The notes under the pieces: model-generated
Told to the model about the DNA's origin: nothing
Database searches by the model: none
The model's input: only the letters and a program-made list of their open reading frames with translations
Made by a program: the position numbers and the translations under genes
In this document: positions 35,926-42,666 of the stretch, one piece after another
Layout: every line of letters starts with the position of its first letter
How positions within the stretch are numbered: position 1 is the first letter of the stretch
Origin: Marisediminicola senii
GTDB lineage: Bacteria; Actinomycetota; Actinomycetes; Actinomycetales; Microbacteriaceae
Assembly (NCBI RefSeq): GCF_011057645.1
Contig: NZ_JAALGE010000002.1
Coordinates: 1-64,000, forward strand
Direction of reading: 5' to 3'
Length of the DNA: 64,000 nucleotides

Positions 35926-37254
35926 ATGAGCGACAACACCAGCGACTGGAAGTTCGAAACCAAGCAGATTCACAGCGGGGCGGCACCCGACCCCGTCACC
36001 GGCGCCCGCGCCACCCCGATCTACCAGACGACGTCATACGTCTTCCGCGACGCCGACCACGCGAAGAACCTGTTCGCGCTCGCCGAGTTCGGCAACATCT
36101 ACACGCGCATCCAGAACCCCACCCAGGCCGTGGTCGAGGAACGCCTCGCCGCACTCGAGGGGGGCACCGCCGCCCTGCTCGTGGCATCCGGCCAGGCCGC
36201 CGAGACCTTCGCCGTGCTCAACATCGCACAGGCCGGCGACCACATCGTCTCGAGCTCGTCGATCTACGGCGGCACCTACAACCTGTTCAAGTACTCGCTC
36301 GCGAAACTCGGCATCGAGACCACCTTCGTCGAGGACCAGGACGACGCGGCCGAGTGGGCCCGCGCCGTGCGCCCCAACACCAAGCTGTTCTTCGCCGAGA
36401 CCATCGGCAACCCGCGCACCAACATCCTCGACATCGAGAAGGTCGCGGGCATCGCGCACGAGGCGGGCGTTCCGCTCATCGTCGACAACACCATCGCGAC
36501 GCCCTACCTCATCCGCCCGTTCGAGCACGGCGCCGACATCGTCGTGCACTCCGCCACCAAGTTCCTCGGCGGGCACGGCACCGTGATCGCCGGCGTCATC
36601 GTCGACGGCGGCAAGTTCGAGTGGTCGAAGAACGTCGACAAGTTCCCCGGCCTGACCGAACCCGACCCGTCGTACCACGGCGCCAGCTACACCGGCGCAG
36701 TCGGCGACGCGATCGCGTTCGTCATCAAGGCACGCGTTCAGCTGCTGCGTGACTTCGGGTCGTCGGTCGCCCCGGCGAGCGCCTGGCAGCTCATCCAGGG
36801 CATCGAGACGCTCAGCCTGCGCATCGAACGCCACGTGCAGAACGCCCAGGCCGTCGCCGAGTGGCTCGACAACCACCCCGACGTCGCCGACGTGTACTAC
36901 TCGGGCCTGCCCGGCAGCCCCTGGTACGCCGCAGCCAACAAGTACGCCCCCAGGGGCGTCGGCGCCGTGCTGTCGTTCGAGCTCAAGGGCGGAGTGGATG
37001 CCGGCCGCGCCCTGGTCAACAACGCTGGCCTGTTCAGCCACCTCGCGAACATCGGCGACGTTCGCAGCCTCATCATTCACCCGGCGTCGACCACGCATTC
37101 GCAGCTCACCCCGGAGCAGCAGTTGACCTCCGGCGTGACCCCGGGCCTCGTTCGACTCTCCGTCGGTCTCGAGAGCATCGACGACATCCTGGCCGACCTC
37201 GCAGCCGGACTGGATGCCGCTCGCGCCGTCTCCGCGCAGGGAGCCGTGCGCTGA
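35926..37254 (+). CDS. metY: O-acetylhomoserine sulfhydrylase (aminocarboxypropyltransferase)
   Basis: 442 aa PLP enzyme of the Cys/Met-metabolism family. [20 protein letters not shown] at the N-terminus, [31 protein letters not shown] in landmarks, and the PLP-lysine motif [11 protein letters not shown]. The longer length (about 430-445 aa) is typical of MetY rather than MetB/MetC/MetZ. It makes homocysteine directly from O-acetylhomoserine and sulfide. AAGGAGA (35914-35920) precedes the ATG. A candidate -10 TAGGCT near 35855 gives a leader of about 60 nt, too short for a SAM riboswitch. metX follows. Confidence 0.93.
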
Positions 37255-37277
37255 CCACCCGATGATGCGCTGCCGCG

Positions 37278-37312
37278 CGGGGCACGACGTCACACGACGC
37301 CGCCGTGCCCCG
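37278..37312 (+). terminator. Stem-loop between metY and metX
   Basis: CGGGGCACG (37278-37286) pairs perfectly with 37304-37312 around a 17-base loop holding a further ACGTC/GACG pairing. No T-run follows, so it may be a partial terminator or an mRNA-stability element within the metY-metX unit. Confidence 0.5.
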
Positions 37313-37334
37313 ATAGCGGCGATACTTGAGACAC

Positions 37335-38540
37335 ATGGACTGGCAGACCCCCGAAGACACGATCCCCTCGTCCTTCGTCACCGAGGCAGACACGAGGGCG
37401 ATGGCGGGAGGACCTCCCGCATCCGGGGCGTGGCGCGAGGGTGACCACCCCGGCGACCGCCGCTTCGTGTCGATCGGCTCGCTCGACCTCCAGCTCGGCG
37501 ACACCCTCCCCGCGGTGCGCATCGCCTACGAGAGCTGGGGCACCCTCAACGCCGACGCATCGAACGCCGTGCTGGTGCTGCACGCCCTGACCGGCGACAG
37601 CCACGTCATCGGCGACCCCGGCCGCGGCCACGCGACGGCCGGCTGGTGGGGCGACCTCGTCGGCCCCGGCAAGGCCATCGACACCGACCGCTGGTTCGTG
37701 GTCGCCCCCAACATGCTGGGCGGCTGCCAGGGCACCACCGGCCCCGCATCGCTCGCGCCAGACGGCCGCGAGTGGGGCGCACGCTTTCCGTTCGTCACGA
37801 TCGGCGACCAGGTCGTCGCCCAGCGCGCCTTCGCCGAGCGCATCGGCATCACGTCGTGGGCCGCCGTCGTCGGCGGGTCGATGGGAGGGATGCAGGCACT
37901 CGAGTGGGCCGTCGCCTTCCCGTCGATGGTGCAGCGCGTCGCGGTGCTCGCCGCACCCGCGATCAGCAGCGCCGACCAGATCGCGCTCAACTCCGTGCAG
38001 ATCGAGGCGATCAGGGTCGACCCCGGCTACGCGGGCGGCGACTACTACGAGGCACCCGACGGCGAGGGACCATCGCGCGGCCTCGCGCTCGCGCGGCGCA
38101 TGGCACTGCTCAACTACCGTTCACCCACCGAGCTCAACGACCGGTTCGAGCGCAGCTGGCAGAGCCCGATCGACCCGCTCGGCGGCGGTGGCAAGTTCGC
38201 GGTCGAGAGCTACCTCGACTTCCACGGCAACAAGTTCACCCGCCGGTTCGACGCGAACAGCTACATCACCCTCGTCGGCGCGATGAACTCGCACGACATC
38301 GGCCGCGGCAGGGGCGGCATCGCCGCGGCGCTCGCCATGGTCACCGCGCGCACCCTCGTGATCGGCATCGACAGCGACCGGTTGTTCCCGGTGCCCGACC
38401 AGCACGTCGTGGCGAGCGGAGTGGCATCCAGCATCACCGGCACCGCCCCCGTAGTGATCGAGTCGCAGTTCGGGCACGACGGGTTCCTCATCGAGCACGC
38501 CGCGGTCGGTGGCTGGCTCCAGCGCCTTCTCGACACCTGA
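37335..38540 (+). CDS. metX: Homoserine O-acetyltransferase
   Basis: 401 aa alpha/beta hydrolase-fold acyltransferase. LVLHALTGDSHVIG, NMLGGCQGTTGP, the nucleophile elbow GGSMGGMQALEW (Ser), the Asp in IDSDRLFPVPDQ and the His in FGHDGFLIE form the catalytic triad. It acetylates homoserine with acetyl-CoA, making the substrate for MetY next door. ATG at 37335 starts 9 bases after GATACT; an upstream TTG (37326) is less likely. No Shine-Dalgarno. Confidence 0.95.
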   Translation: MDWQTPEDTIPSSFVTEADTRAMAGGPPASGAWREGDHPGDRRFVSIGSLDLQLGDTLPAVRIAYESWGTLNADASNAVLVLHALTGDSHVIGDPGRGHATAGWWGDLVGPGKAIDTDRWFVVAPNMLGGCQGTTGPASLAPDGREWGARFPFVTIGDQVVAQRAFAERIGITSWAAVVGGSMGGMQALEWAVAFPSMVQRVAVLAAPAISSADQIALNSVQIEAIRVDPGYAGGDYYEAPDGEGPSRGLALARRMALLNYRSPTELNDRFERSWQSPIDPLGGGGKFAVESYLDFHGNKFTRRFDANSYITLVGAMNSHDIGRGRGGIAAALAMVTARTLVIGIDSDRLFPVPDQHVVASGVASSITGTAPVVIESQFGHDGFLIEHAAVGGWLQRLLDT

Positions 38541-38662
38541 TGCACGCCCTCCGATAAATCCGAGTTAGTGTCACTGTACCGGCGCCGACGGGCGTCACCG
38601 CAGGCTCGGGTGGGCCCCATCGGGATCGACCCCGGCGACTCGACGCGGAGGTGAACGGCACC

Positions 38663-39319
38663 ATGGCCACGAGGAGAAACCGTGCTGCCGGGCCCCGCGT
38701 CGCCATCGTCGAAGACCACCGCCTGCTGCTCGACGGACTGCAGGCCCTGATCGGACCGCGGCGGTCGGGCCTCGACGTCGTGATCAGCGAGACGTCGTGG
38801 CACGGCATGCTCGAGCACTCGCAGTTTCCCGTCGACGTCGCGGTCGTCGGGCTCAACCTCGGCGACGGCATCGCCATCGGAACCAAGATCCGCGCACTGG
38901 CCGCGGTCGGCACGCGAACCGTCGTGCTGAGCCGCCTCACCGACCTCGAGGCGACCGCCGGCGTGCTCGCCGCCGGCGCCTCCGCGTGTATCGCCCGCAC
39001 CGACTCGGCCGCCGAGCTGATGGCCGCCGTGACCGCGGCGGCCAGGGGTACAGCATTGCCCAGCCCCGAGGTTGATGCCGCCGAGCATCGTCACCCCGCA
39101 GACCCCGGGCTGGGGCGGCAGGAGCAGCGGGCGATGATGCTCTACGCGTCCGGGCACTCGATCAAGGCCGTCGCCGATGAGATGCAGACCACCGAGGAGA
39201 CGGTGAAGTCCTACATCAAGCGGGCCAGGCGCAAGTACCGCCACATGGGCGTCGACGTCGGCACGAAGATCCTGCTCCGCAGGCGCGGAATCCATGAGGG
39301 GTGGCTCACCCCGGAGTGA
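38663..39319 (+). CDS. NarL/LuxR-type response regulator with a degenerate receiver (phospho-Asp replaced by Gly)
   Basis: 218 aa. The receiver fold is intact (RVAIVEDHRLLLDGLQALI, acidic pair Glu17-Asp18), but where the paralogue at 41995 has LLDVD with Asp59 this protein has VVGLN with Gly63, and the conserved Lys is Arg112 (CIARTD against YLVKSE). Only the switch Ser90 remains. The output domain (QEQRAMMLYASGHSIKAVAD, ETVKSYIKRARRKYRHMG) is a LuxR-type HTH very like that of the paralogue, sharing KSY.KR and GVDVGTK. It is therefore expected to bind similar DNA without phosphorylation. ATG at 38663 is chosen; GGAGG at 38646-38650 is somewhat distant. Confidence 0.82.
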   Translation: MATRRNRAAGPRVAIVEDHRLLLDGLQALIGPRRSGLDVVISETSWHGMLEHSQFPVDVAVVGLNLGDGIAIGTKIRALAAVGTRTVVLSRLTDLEATAGVLAAGASACIARTDSAAELMAAVTAAARGTALPSPEVDAAEHRHPADPGLGRQEQRAMMLYASGHSIKAVADEMQTTEETVKSYIKRARRKYRHMGVDVGTKILLRRRGIHEGWLTPE

Positions 39320-39397
39320 CCCCGGCGTGACATTCCGCTGGGATCGGACGATCGCTGAGCGGGGCTCGGCGAGGCCGCTCGGCGGCTCCGAATCGAC

Positions 39398-39454
39398 TTC
39401 GGGGGACACGCCGGAGCACATTCGGCGTGTCGCAGTTGCCCGCGAGCCCCCGAA
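39398..39454. other. Nested stem-loop between the pseudo-receiver gene and the histidine kinase gene
   Basis: Outer arms TTCGGGGG (39398-39405) and 39447-39454, inner arms ACACGCCG (39406-39413) and 39423-39430, all perfect. It is 79 bp after the regulator stop and 18 bp before a -10-like TAGTGT (39472-39477). It could be a terminator, an operator for the two regulators, or an RNA structure. The rest of the 224-bp gap is G/C-rich without a gene. Confidence 0.55.
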
Positions 39455-39543
39455 ATAGGCACGCGTGGTACTAGTGTCGAGCAGGGGGGAGGGTATGGGC
39501 TGTCCCTGTATTTCTCACAGACACTCAGCACCACGGGGCCGGC

Positions 39544-40707
39544 ATGGAACAGTTTGCTAAAGAGCGGGATCGACTGCTGCAGTCGGCCGCGCGGGCAATC
39601 GGTCTGGGTGCCCTCGCCGTCTCGCTCGTCAGCCTCGCCGTTCCGGGGGTCATCGAGCCGTCGTCCCTGCTGCCGCTGCTGCCCCTCTATGCGGTGCTCG
39701 CGGTCGCGCTCGTGCGCATCGGCGTCAGCCAGTCCCTCATCTGGGTGGGCCTCGGGCTCATCTCCGGCACCGGCATCCTGATTCTCGCGCAGCAGCCCCT
39801 CGGCACGGCTACCACCCCCGAGATCGCGACCGCCCTGGTTCCGCTCGCCGGCGGGGGGATGGCGGCGTTCGGCATCGTGCTCGTCGGTGCGGTGCACCGC
39901 GTGCTGGTGATGGCGGCCGGGCTCGTCGTGAGCACCGTGCTGATCGGGCTGGCCGTGCCCGGCCCCGGCGTCGTCTCGACACAGGCCGCGACCGTGCTGC
40001 TCGGCTGGGTGCTCGCCACCACCCTGGGCTCCTGGGTGAGCGCGGCACTCCCCCGTGCCGCCCGCCGCATCTTCTCGATCGGCAGGGCGCACCGCGCGGA
40101 ACGGCAGGCCAGCGAGACCGAGGCGCAGCGCAGGCAGGGCGCGCGGCTGCTGCACGACACCGTTCTGGCGACTCTCACCCTGCTCGCGCACTCCGGCGTC
40201 GGGGTCTCCCCCGCCGCGCTGCAGCAACAGGCCGCCGACGACGCCCGCCTGCTCCGCCAGCTGCGTCTCGGTGGTGGCCCGGTGCCCCAGCCCACCGGAG
40301 CCGCCGCGGTCGAGCCGGTCGAGGAGTCGGCCCTCGGCCGCACCCTCGAATCGGTCAAGCAGCGGTTCGGGCGCATCGGGCTCGAGGTCAGCTGGCACGG
40401 CACCGGGCAGGTGCTGCTGCCGAGCGAGGTGCTCGACGCCTTTCTGCTCGCCCTCGCCGAGTGCCTCGAGAACGTCCGCAGGCACTCCGGGGTCACCGAT
40501 GCGCACGTCACCATCACCGACGACGACACCACCGTGCGCGCGATGGTCACCGACGCCGGCGTCGGATTCAGCCTCGACGACATCGACTCCGCACGGCTCG
40601 GGTTCAAGGACTCCGTGGTGGGCCGCCTCCGCGAGGTGGGCGGCAACGCCCGCCTGTTCTCCTCCCCCGGGGCCGGCACCACCGTCGTGCTGGAGGTTCC
40701 GCGGTGA
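39544..40707 (+). CDS. Sensor histidine kinase (NarL-type partner)
   Basis: 387 aa. Five to six membrane segments (20-165) without a large extracellular domain, then a cytoplasmic kinase core: dimerisation/phosphoacceptor RLLHDTVLATLTLLA with His204, N-box AECLENVRRHSG with Asn310, and G-box VTDAGVGFS with a C-terminal GTTVVLEVP. All residues for autophosphorylation are present. It sits between the pseudo-receiver regulator and a kinase-like protein and should phosphorylate Asp59 of the regulator at 41995. The ATG has only GGGGCC before it; a 21-codon ORF (39495-39560) with a G-rich leader overlaps its start. Confidence 0.88.
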   Translation: MEQFAKERDRLLQSAARAIGLGALAVSLVSLAVPGVIEPSSLLPLLPLYAVLAVALVRIGVSQSLIWVGLGLISGTGILILAQQPLGTATTPEIATALVPLAGGGMAAFGIVLVGAVHRVLVMAAGLVVSTVLIGLAVPGPGVVSTQAATVLLGWVLATTLGSWVSAALPRAARRIFSIGRAHRAERQASETEAQRRQGARLLHDTVLATLTLLAHSGVGVSPAALQQQAADDARLLRQLRLGGGPVPQPTGAAAVEPVEESALGRTLESVKQRFGRIGLEVSWHGTGQVLLPSEVLDAFLLALAECLENVRRHSGVTDAHVTITDDDTTVRAMVTDAGVGFSLDDIDSARLGFKDSVVGRLREVGGNARLFSSPGAGTTVVLEVPR

Positions 40708-41966
40708 GCGGCTGGGCGCGGCCTGAGGAGAACACCCTCGGCGTCATCCTCGGTCGCGGGCGCGGCAAGACCCGCCTGCCCGCCGGCTCCACCGCGGCCA
40801 AGGCCGTGCGGCAGGCCACCGCACAGGGAGCGAGCCTGGGAACCGCCCACCTCGGCATCGGCGCCGGCGTGCTGTGCTCCATCGAGGCCGTCTACGGGCT
40901 CGGCGTCTTCTCGTCCCAGCTCGGGAGCTACGCCGACCTGCTGCCCATCATCGCGGCGTGGCTGCTGTTCATCGTCGCCTTCGCGGCCGTGAGCCTCAAG
41001 ATCGCCACGCGCGGCGAGAGCTTTCCCACCTGGATGTTCGTCGCCTACCTGGCCGCCCTCGCCGGGGTGGTCGCCCTCGACTTCATCGCGATCTGGCCGC
41101 TCGGCGACATCGGGCGTCACGCCACGGCGTCGGTGACGGCCGGGTTCGGGCTGCTCGCCGCCGTCACCCTGCGACCGGCCCGCGAGCTCATCGCCGTCTC
41201 GATCGCCCTGCTCGCCGCATTCGCGGTGGCGATCGCGATGACCACGCCACTGGACTCCACCACCATCCCGACCCAGCTGGTCACCGTCTCGCTCGCGGTG
41301 TTCCCCGCGCTGTTCGCGATCTTCGTGGTTCGCCGGTTCCGTCGTATGGTGCAGCTCGAACTCGACAGGGTGCTCGTGCAGAGCACGGTGTCTGCGCCGC
41401 GCTTCGCGGTCGGCATGCTCGCGTCGGAAGAGCTCGCCCGGCTCGACCTCGCGGCAGAGGAACTGCTCGACTCGGTGGCGAGCGGCGCTACCGCGCTGCC
41501 ACTCGAGCCGAGGACCGCGTCGATCGCCGCATCGCTGGCCACCGAACTCCGGCTGCACCTGATCGAGGGACGCCGCGAGACGTGGCTGTACCACGCCATC
41601 ACCGAATCGGAGCACCTCGGAAAGTCGGCGACGCTGCACGACCCGGGGAGCCTCGCTGGCCTGCTCGACGCCCAGCAGCGCGACGGGCTGCTCTCGGCGG
41701 TCTGGCTGATGGTGGCCGACAACAACAAGAAGTCGGCGACTACGGCGAAGCTCATGCTCGGCCCGGTCATCCCACCGAGCGACCGGGCGGCGAAGCGCAC
41801 CATCACGATCCCCATCGTCATCACCACCTCGGGAATCGCCCGCAACCGCATCGACCCGACCACCTGGGCGGCCATAGCCAAGGTCGGCCACTACGCCGAC
41901 TCCACCGAGAACTCGAGCGTGCGCATCGAGATCGACTGCGTCGTCGCGAACCCCGCTGACCAGTAA
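40704..41966 (+). CDS. Membrane protein resembling a degenerate histidine kinase
   Basis: 420 aa. Six membrane segments (about 45-215), then a helical segment VRRFRRMVQLELDRVLVQST and a C-terminal domain of about 170 residues. No HD-type phosphoacceptor and no DxGxG box are present; DNNKKSATTAKLM could be a decayed N-box and RIDPTTWAAIAKVGHYADST followed by RIEIDCVV mirrors the end of a HATPase domain. It overlaps the kinase gene (GTGA at 40704), so the two are made together and may form a heteromeric sensor. The homology call is inference; otherwise it is an unknown membrane protein. Confidence 0.68.
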   Translation: MSGWARPEENTLGVILGRGRGKTRLPAGSTAAKAVRQATAQGASLGTAHLGIGAGVLCSIEAVYGLGVFSSQLGSYADLLPIIAAWLLFIVAFAAVSLKIATRGESFPTWMFVAYLAALAGVVALDFIAIWPLGDIGRHATASVTAGFGLLAAVTLRPARELIAVSIALLAAFAVAIAMTTPLDSTTIPTQLVTVSLAVFPALFAIFVVRRFRRMVQLELDRVLVQSTVSAPRFAVGMLASEELARLDLAAEELLDSVASGATALPLEPRTASIAASLATELRLHLIEGRRETWLYHAITESEHLGKSATLHDPGSLAGLLDAQQRDGLLSAVWLMVADNNKKSATTAKLMLGPVIPPSDRAAKRTITIPIVITTSGIARNRIDPTTWAAIAKVGHYADSTENSSVRIEIDCVVANPADQ

Positions 41967-41994
41967 TCACCCACCGAGTAGAGCGAGAGACACC

Positions 41995-42666
41995 ATGCCA
42001 ACAGACGCCCCCATCCGCCTGGCCATCGTGGATGACCACAAGATGCTCCTCGGTGCCCTCACCGAGTGGATCCGCAACGCCACGGCGGACATCACCATGG
42101 TCGCCGCCGTCGCCTCCTGGCCCGAGCTGCTCACGCACGCGGAATTCCCCGTCGACGTGGTGCTGCTCGACGTCGACCTCAAGGACAACCTGCCGATCTC
42201 GCTCAAGATCGCGACGCTCAAGACCGCGGGCGTCAAGACCGTGCTGATGAGCACCTACTCCGACCCCAACCTGGTGCGCGAGGCACTCGGCGCCGGTGCC
42301 CTCGGCTACCTGGTCAAGAGCGAGGACGCCGTGATGATCGTCGAGGCGATCCGGTCGGCCAGCAAGGGCGAGTCCTACATCTCGGCCGAGCTCGACCTCG
42401 CCCTCAGCGCCGGCGACGTCGGCGGATCGCCCAAGCTCAGCGCGCAGGAGCGCCGCGTGATGGCGCTCTACGGCGGCGGCGAGCCGGTCAAGTCGGTCGC
42501 GTACCAGCTCGACATCTCCGAGGAGACCGCCAAGTCCTACCTGAAGCGCATCCGGGAGAAGTACCGGGTCGCCGGCATCGACGTCGGCACCAAGGTCGCG
42601 CTGCGCAAGCGCGCCATCCAGGACGGCATCCTGCTGCAGACCGACATGCCGAGCGGCACCTACTGA
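41995..42666 (+). CDS. NarL/LuxR-type response regulator (canonical receiver)
   Basis: 223 aa. Receiver: acidic pair Asp13-Asp14 in IVDDHK, phosphoacceptor Asp59 in VVLLDVDL, switch Ser86/Thr87, Lys108 in YLVKSED. Output: SAQERRVMALYGGGEPVKSVAY then ISEETAKSYLKRIREKYRVAGI, a LuxR HTH. It is the intact paralogue of the regulator at 38663, sharing the unusual ISxETxKSYxKR and DVGTKxxLRxR segments. GAGAG (41985-41989) precedes the ATG. Last gene of the signalling cluster, convergent with the thiamine-binding-like gene 13 bp away. Confidence 0.93.
   Translation: MPTDAPIRLAIVDDHKMLLGALTEWIRNATADITMVAAVASWPELLTHAEFPVDVVLLDVDLKDNLPISLKIATLKTAGVKTVLMSTYSDPNLVREALGAGALGYLVKSEDAVMIVEAIRSASKGESYISAELDLALSAGDVGGSPKLSAQERRVMALYGGGEPVKSVAYQLDISEETAKSYLKRIREKYRVAGIDVGTKVALRKRAIQDGILLQTDMPSGTY

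Follow-up and report, generated by a model that had tools for sequence, protein, structure and literature searches.

What does a response regulator do when it has kept its DNA-binding domain and its place in a two-component operon but has lost the residue at which it would be phosphorylated? According to a 2025 review, a pseudo-receiver is a domain in which the receiver fold is identified and at least one of the active-site residues DD, D, T and K is missing; such domains make up about 6% of bacterial receivers, and their activation and inactivation is called a mystery (PMC12632262). We addressed the question at a locus in a 64,000-nucleotide stretch of the genome of the actinobacterium Marisediminicola senii (NZ_JAALGE010000002.1, positions 1 to 64,000; hereafter the window), where two NarL-type regulators flank a histidine kinase and a membrane protein. 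A check of the open reading frames agreed with the original prediction on the four genes and their positions, and gave the following layout, in which all features lie on the forward strand:

35926–38540, plus strand: metY and metX, which flank the locus on its 5′ side and are conserved there, assigned partly by domain matches.
38663–39319, plus strand: RR1 (218 aa), a copy of the NarL-type regulator whose receiver is degenerate and whose helix–turn–helix (HTH) domain is conserved.
38849–38851, plus strand: codon GGG for Gly63, at the phospho-Asp position of RR1; Asp stands here in 27/34 RR1s, all five congeners included.
38996–38998, plus strand: codon CGC for Arg112, at the conserved-Lys position of RR1.
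39098–39310, plus strand: the HTH domain of RR1 (residues 146–216), not accelerated.
39320–39543, plus strand: the intergenic region between RR1 and HK, in which the dyad GTGGCACCCCCAnTTnGGGTGnCA of relatives is unrecognisable.
39544–40707, plus strand: HK (387 aa), a sensor histidine kinase with all its parts: an N-terminal membrane domain and the H-, N- and G-boxes.
40704–41966, plus strand: MP (420 aa), a membrane protein restricted to the family, whose conserved cytoplasmic domain is about 210 aa long.
41995–42666, plus strand: RR2 (223 aa), an intact NarL-type response regulator.

The metY product is presumably of the O-acetylhomoserine sulfhydrylase type and that of metX of the homoserine O-acetyltransferase type. 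For RR1, a GTG at 38651, 5′ of 38663, is also possible as the start codon. The 4-bp overlap between HK and MP that had been predicted follows directly from the ORF coordinates.

To place the locus in its family, we compared the window with the loci of 101 relatives (102 loci). The gene order metY–metX–(RR1)–HK–MP–RR2 is kept in nearly all of the relatives; downstream of RR2 there is usually a small convergent gene together with a glycosyltransferase-like gene. HK and MP overlap by exactly 4 bp in 87/101 relatives, which points to coupled translation of the two proteins. Of 150 genomes sampled from the family (Microbacteriaceae), 105 contain MP, and among 149 genomes sampled across the order MP is confined to that family. 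Judged by this synteny, HK–MP–RR2 adjoining metY–metX is a conserved unit, a family-wide two-component operon. RR1 does not accompany it throughout: it occurs in 31/102 loci, all of them in one clade. The original prediction had envisaged a pairing of pseudo-receiver and intact regulator, and had itself listed a strain-specific Gly63 and a lack of co-conservation of the four genes as findings that would speak against it. Both are what we found, with Gly63 in this species alone and RR1 missing from about 70% of loci.

Individual loci depart from this layout. In one genome (locus L109), RR1 and HK are separated by some 3 kb of additional sequence, and in another (L137, genome G009) HK and MP appear split into several partial ORFs, possibly through frameshifts in a lower-quality assembly. 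Ten loci (L076, L085, L089, L094, L096, L097, L098, L102, L105 and L108) encode a putative lipoprotein of about 280–320 aa between metX or RR1 and HK, just 5′ of HK. It has a conserved RC(D/E)xHA..(D/E)DKxGT motif, gave no Pfam match and may be a partner of the sensor outside the cytoplasm.

The core of the operon has the features of an ordinary kinase–regulator pair. HK contains an LLHD H-box (His204), the N-box residue Asn310, Asp337 and Gly341, and a third Gly box, and its catalytic residues are invariant or nearly so among 102 aligned kinases, as expected of the complete histidine kinase first described. The second regulator, also predicted to be intact, has a receiver whose five active-site residues (DD, D, T/S and K) are all present in 101/101 genomes, and RR2 is the slowest-evolving signalling component of the locus, relatives being 69–89% identical to the window protein. 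HK and RR2 together therefore carry both hallmarks of a canonical NarL-type pair, namely the H, N and G boxes on one side and a full receiver active site with a GerE HTH on the other. From these conserved residues and the gene order, HK would be the catalytic sensor, partnered in the membrane by MP, and would phosphorylate RR2, the probable output regulator.

MP had been described as a decayed, kinase-like protein that forms a double sensor with HK. Its layout is indeed like that of HK, with several membrane helices followed by a cytoplasmic domain of about 200 aa, and a full-length profile comparison of the two proteins gave E values of about 1e-5 to 2e-5; there is also a weak correspondence at the N-box position, which keeps the idea of a true pseudokinase alive. 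According to that reading, which is compatible with any reading of RR1, MP has lost its H-box and G-box and forms a heterodimeric sensor with HK. The membrane helices, however, account for the full-length signal, and reversed controls come within about two orders of magnitude of it, reaching E 1e-3; when the cytoplasmic domains were compared alone, nothing rose above shuffles. Neither MP itself (Pfam, NCBIfam and PDB sequence searches) nor an alignment of 63 members (Pfam and PDB) gave a convincing match, and homology to HisKA_3 or HATPase_c was undetectable with Pfam, NCBIfam, PDB and hhalign. We consequently set aside MP as a kinase homologue, an idea that found no support in BLAST or Pfam searches, in a PDB profile search or in hhalign comparisons controlled by reversal and shuffling. 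A pseudokinase origin is a realistic possibility, but one that we lean against.

The label of decay fits poorly for a second reason: the cytoplasmic domain of MP, for all its want of significant profile similarity to HK, is strongly conserved and rich in residues that are invariant among MPs (L244, D248, E252, P266, W294, R326, W334 and others), which argues that it is maintained. The double sensor loses its footing with the same lack of profile similarity. An AlphaFold model of this domain from the single sequence had a mean pLDDT of 35, too low to be of use. LiaFSR-type three-component systems also combine a membrane protein, a sensor kinase and a NarL/LuxR-type regulator in one operon, and the make-up of the present locus is like theirs, although MP had no LiaF-type family match in Pfam or NCBIfam. 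From its conserved residues and its position in the operon, MP is best viewed as a putative translationally coupled membrane subunit.

We then turned to the first regulator. Over 206 aa, RR1 and RR2 share 38% identity, and their alignment sets Gly63 of RR1 against Asp59 of RR2 and Arg112 against Lys108, the very residues that had been singled out in the original prediction. Among 34 RR1s, Gly at the phospho-Asp position occurs in the window protein only, whereas both Asp and Lys are present in 27, comprising the five congeners (5/5) and 22 further proteins. The window RR1 also has Glu17 where 27/27 intact RR1s have Asp, and it scores 29.5 bits against Pfam Response_reg, just under the cut-off of 30.2. 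A single-base sequencing error was rejected as the source of either replacement, since GGG differs from GAC/GAT, and CGC from AAA/AAG, by at least two changes each. By its residues, then, the window RR1 is without the groups for phosphotransfer, and this is not a sequencing artefact; with D→G and K→R, it would be classed as a pseudo-receiver regulator by the definition of the review (PMC12632262).

Across the family, RR1 has a longer history than this single replacement. A tree of the five other proteins confines RR1 to a single clade, within which it has been lost outright several times, and the RR1s form one group beside all RR2s (bootstrap 70), which makes RR1 an old paralogue and not a recent local copy. 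Comparison of its receiver residues across the clade shows that RR1 was ancestrally a normal receiver–HTH protein. Glu replaces the phospho-Asp in 7/7 genomes of one genus (g17) and 2/2 of another (g73), and nearly the whole receiver active site is gone from the g73 proteins. Two species of a third genus (g7) retain the HTH but have lost the receiver by deletion, which leaves proteins of 141 aa and 89 aa; a frame or assembly artefact is unlikely here, as the short ORFs of both species start 44–51 bp after metX. On the tree, the phospho-site was lost independently in four lineages, through Gly in the window, Glu in two genera and receiver deletion in the third. Moreover, three RR1s (loci L069, L101 and L107) each lack one of the two acidic residues, and 25/29 RR1s have Arg at T+1 (column 87 in RR2 numbering). 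Receivers usually have Ala or Gly at T+1 (PMC12632262), so that RR1s which do have the Asp may also accept phosphate poorly, which we regard as a lead.

Loss of the phospho-site might mark either a change of function or the beginning of the end of the gene, and the two domains of RR1 were informative in this respect. The receiver of the window RR1 is 54% identical to those of its congeners, which are 72% identical among themselves, whereas the corresponding values for the HTH are 79% and 84%; the comparison covers five congeners, and with protein-level rates of this kind a weakly constrained domain and a recently lost one are not fully distinguishable. Acceleration was absent from HK (71 versus 71) and MP (68 versus 67). 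Consistent with this, relative-rate chi-square values for the window RR1 were 3.7–9.3 for the receiver and 0–2.3 for the HTH. Where a column is conserved in 85% or more of the intact RR1s, the window protein departs from it in 12/44 cases in the receiver and 2/40 in the HTH, against averages of 3.2 and 1.1, respectively, for the intact RR1s themselves. The simplest account of these substitution patterns is that the receiver of the window RR1 has been released from selection for phosphotransfer and that DNA binding is still selected.

The same data bear on the reading that RR1 here is a decaying gene, functionless now, in which the receiver has gone first and the HTH will follow. Such decay would fit a Gly63 that is private to this species, a receiver that is broadly relaxed and the several RR1 losses in the clade, and in view of those outright losses RR1 may indeed be dispensable and on its way out. 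An open reading frame and an HTH that stands near the congener level (79% versus 84%), with 2/40 columns broken against 12/44 in the receiver, are difficult to reconcile with it, as are the four lineages that dropped the phospho-site or the receiver and kept the HTH, including a clean deletion down to an 89-aa protein. We therefore regard decay as unlikely.

If RR1 still acts, it may do so with or against RR2. The original prediction held that the inactive-receiver RR1 competes or heterodimerises with RR2, in effect as a threshold switch, and that the two HTH domains are so alike that they probably share their sites; we took the heterodimer to form through the receivers. The HTH claim stands in part: the recognition helix EETxKSYxKRxRxKYR is common to both proteins, but over their full length the domains agree at only about half of the positions (a count by eye on the alignment). 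The common helix would suit a heterodimer, as would the retention in the window of a receiver near the Pfam cut-off and the precedents of BldM/WhiI (PMC4125116) and RcsA/RcsB (PMC5651002). The HTH-only RR1s of genus g7, however, could not pair through a receiver; because these proteins keep the HTH only, receiver pairing cannot be a shared or core function of RR1.

The DNA 5′ of the kinase gene gave a further indication. A dyad, GTGGCACCCCCAnTTnGGGTGnCA, is conserved just 5′ of HK in about 30 relatives (shuffles gave 0–1), and when 14 genomes were scanned, all matches with no more than one mismatch were located just 5′ of HK. Genomes that have no RR1 carry the dyad as well, so that it would be either a binding site for the core regulator or a promoter element, and none of the loci compared has a copy 5′ of RR1; both observations speak against the heterodimer reading. 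In the window (39320–39543) the dyad is unrecognisable, and it is missing in some congeners. We did not count it as evidence for a target shared by RR1 and RR2, given that the window has no recognisable copy. Receiver-mediated heterodimerisation as the principal role of RR1 seems to us improbable.

Taken together, the residues, rates and gene order suggest an ordinary kinase–regulator pair with a membrane partner and a duplicated regulator that has turned into a phosphorylation-independent modulator acting by DNA binding, an account that we consider, on balance, probable. RR1, at the 5′ end of the operon in one clade, would in this species be unphosphorylatable at the usual site; it would act through its HTH on sites related to those of RR2, its effect being set by its amount and not by HK. 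Pairing of its receiver with RR2 may contribute without being the core function, as the g7 deletion suggests. The phosphorylation-independent partner regulator of the original prediction is thus retained as the best reading, the phosphotransfer residues being lost and the HTH conserved, and heterodimerisation as its essence is given up, one genus having an RR1 that is an HTH without a receiver. A bolder combination holds that RR1s were repeatedly converted, by Asp loss or receiver deletion, to competitors of RR2 that work through the HTH and without phosphorylation, and that MP is a kinase subunit of a new kind, obligate and restricted to the family. It is possible but tentative, and we think it somewhat unlikely as a whole.

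The arrangement had been called unfamiliar, but related ones have been described. CmrRST of Clostridioides difficile likewise combines a sensor kinase, a normal regulator and a pseudo-receiver regulator in one operon (PMC12632262, PMC12548384). Its regulators are of the OmpR family, whereas RR1 and RR2 are NarL-type, and an MP-like subunit, present in our locus, is not mentioned in the available part of PMC12632262; the atypical state of RR1 is, in addition, species-private and imposed on an ancestrally normal receiver. NarL-type heterodimer partners are known as well. BldM and WhiI of Streptomyces are, like RR1, atypical actinobacterial response regulators, and WhiI heterodimerises with its partner regulator (PMC4125116). 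They are orphans with no cognate kinase in the operon, whereas RR1 sits with HK, and their heterodimer was shown, whereas RR1 is known here from its sequence. The RcsC/RcsD/RcsB system with RcsA also sets a non-kinase membrane protein beside a kinase and has, in addition to its NarL-like regulator, an auxiliary one (PMC5651002). RcsD is a phosphotransfer protein, however, and MP shows no such domain; RcsA pairs with RcsB and needs RcsB phosphorylation for its function, whereas pairing of RR1 with RR2 is a candidate interaction, and RR1, unlike RcsA, is a receiver-bearing paralogue of RR2 (PMC5651002). Our literature searches, incomplete in coverage, found no description of the present locus.

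The locus offers one orthologous regulator, in the same operon, in four states: with an intact receiver, with Asp replaced by Glu, with Asp replaced by Gly and as an HTH without a receiver. This natural series would make the steps from a phospho-switch to a constitutive DNA binder testable in related strains, and in MP the locus adds a histidine-kinase membrane partner that is conserved and uncharacterised.

Regulators and modules of the same kind occur elsewhere. A scan of named genomes for regulators returned distant ones only. The genome of the window has two more regulators of the same HTH type, at L170 (4023–4715, minus strand) and L171, which are 32–36% identical to RR2; the receiver of the L170 regulator is intact, and the surrounding stretch examined contains no relative of HK or MP. 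Some genomes of the family carry second, diverged HK–MP–RR modules elsewhere (L172–L178), in some of which the regulator lies on the opposite strand, and a diverged MP copy in genomes G093 and G087 contains an in-frame TGA.
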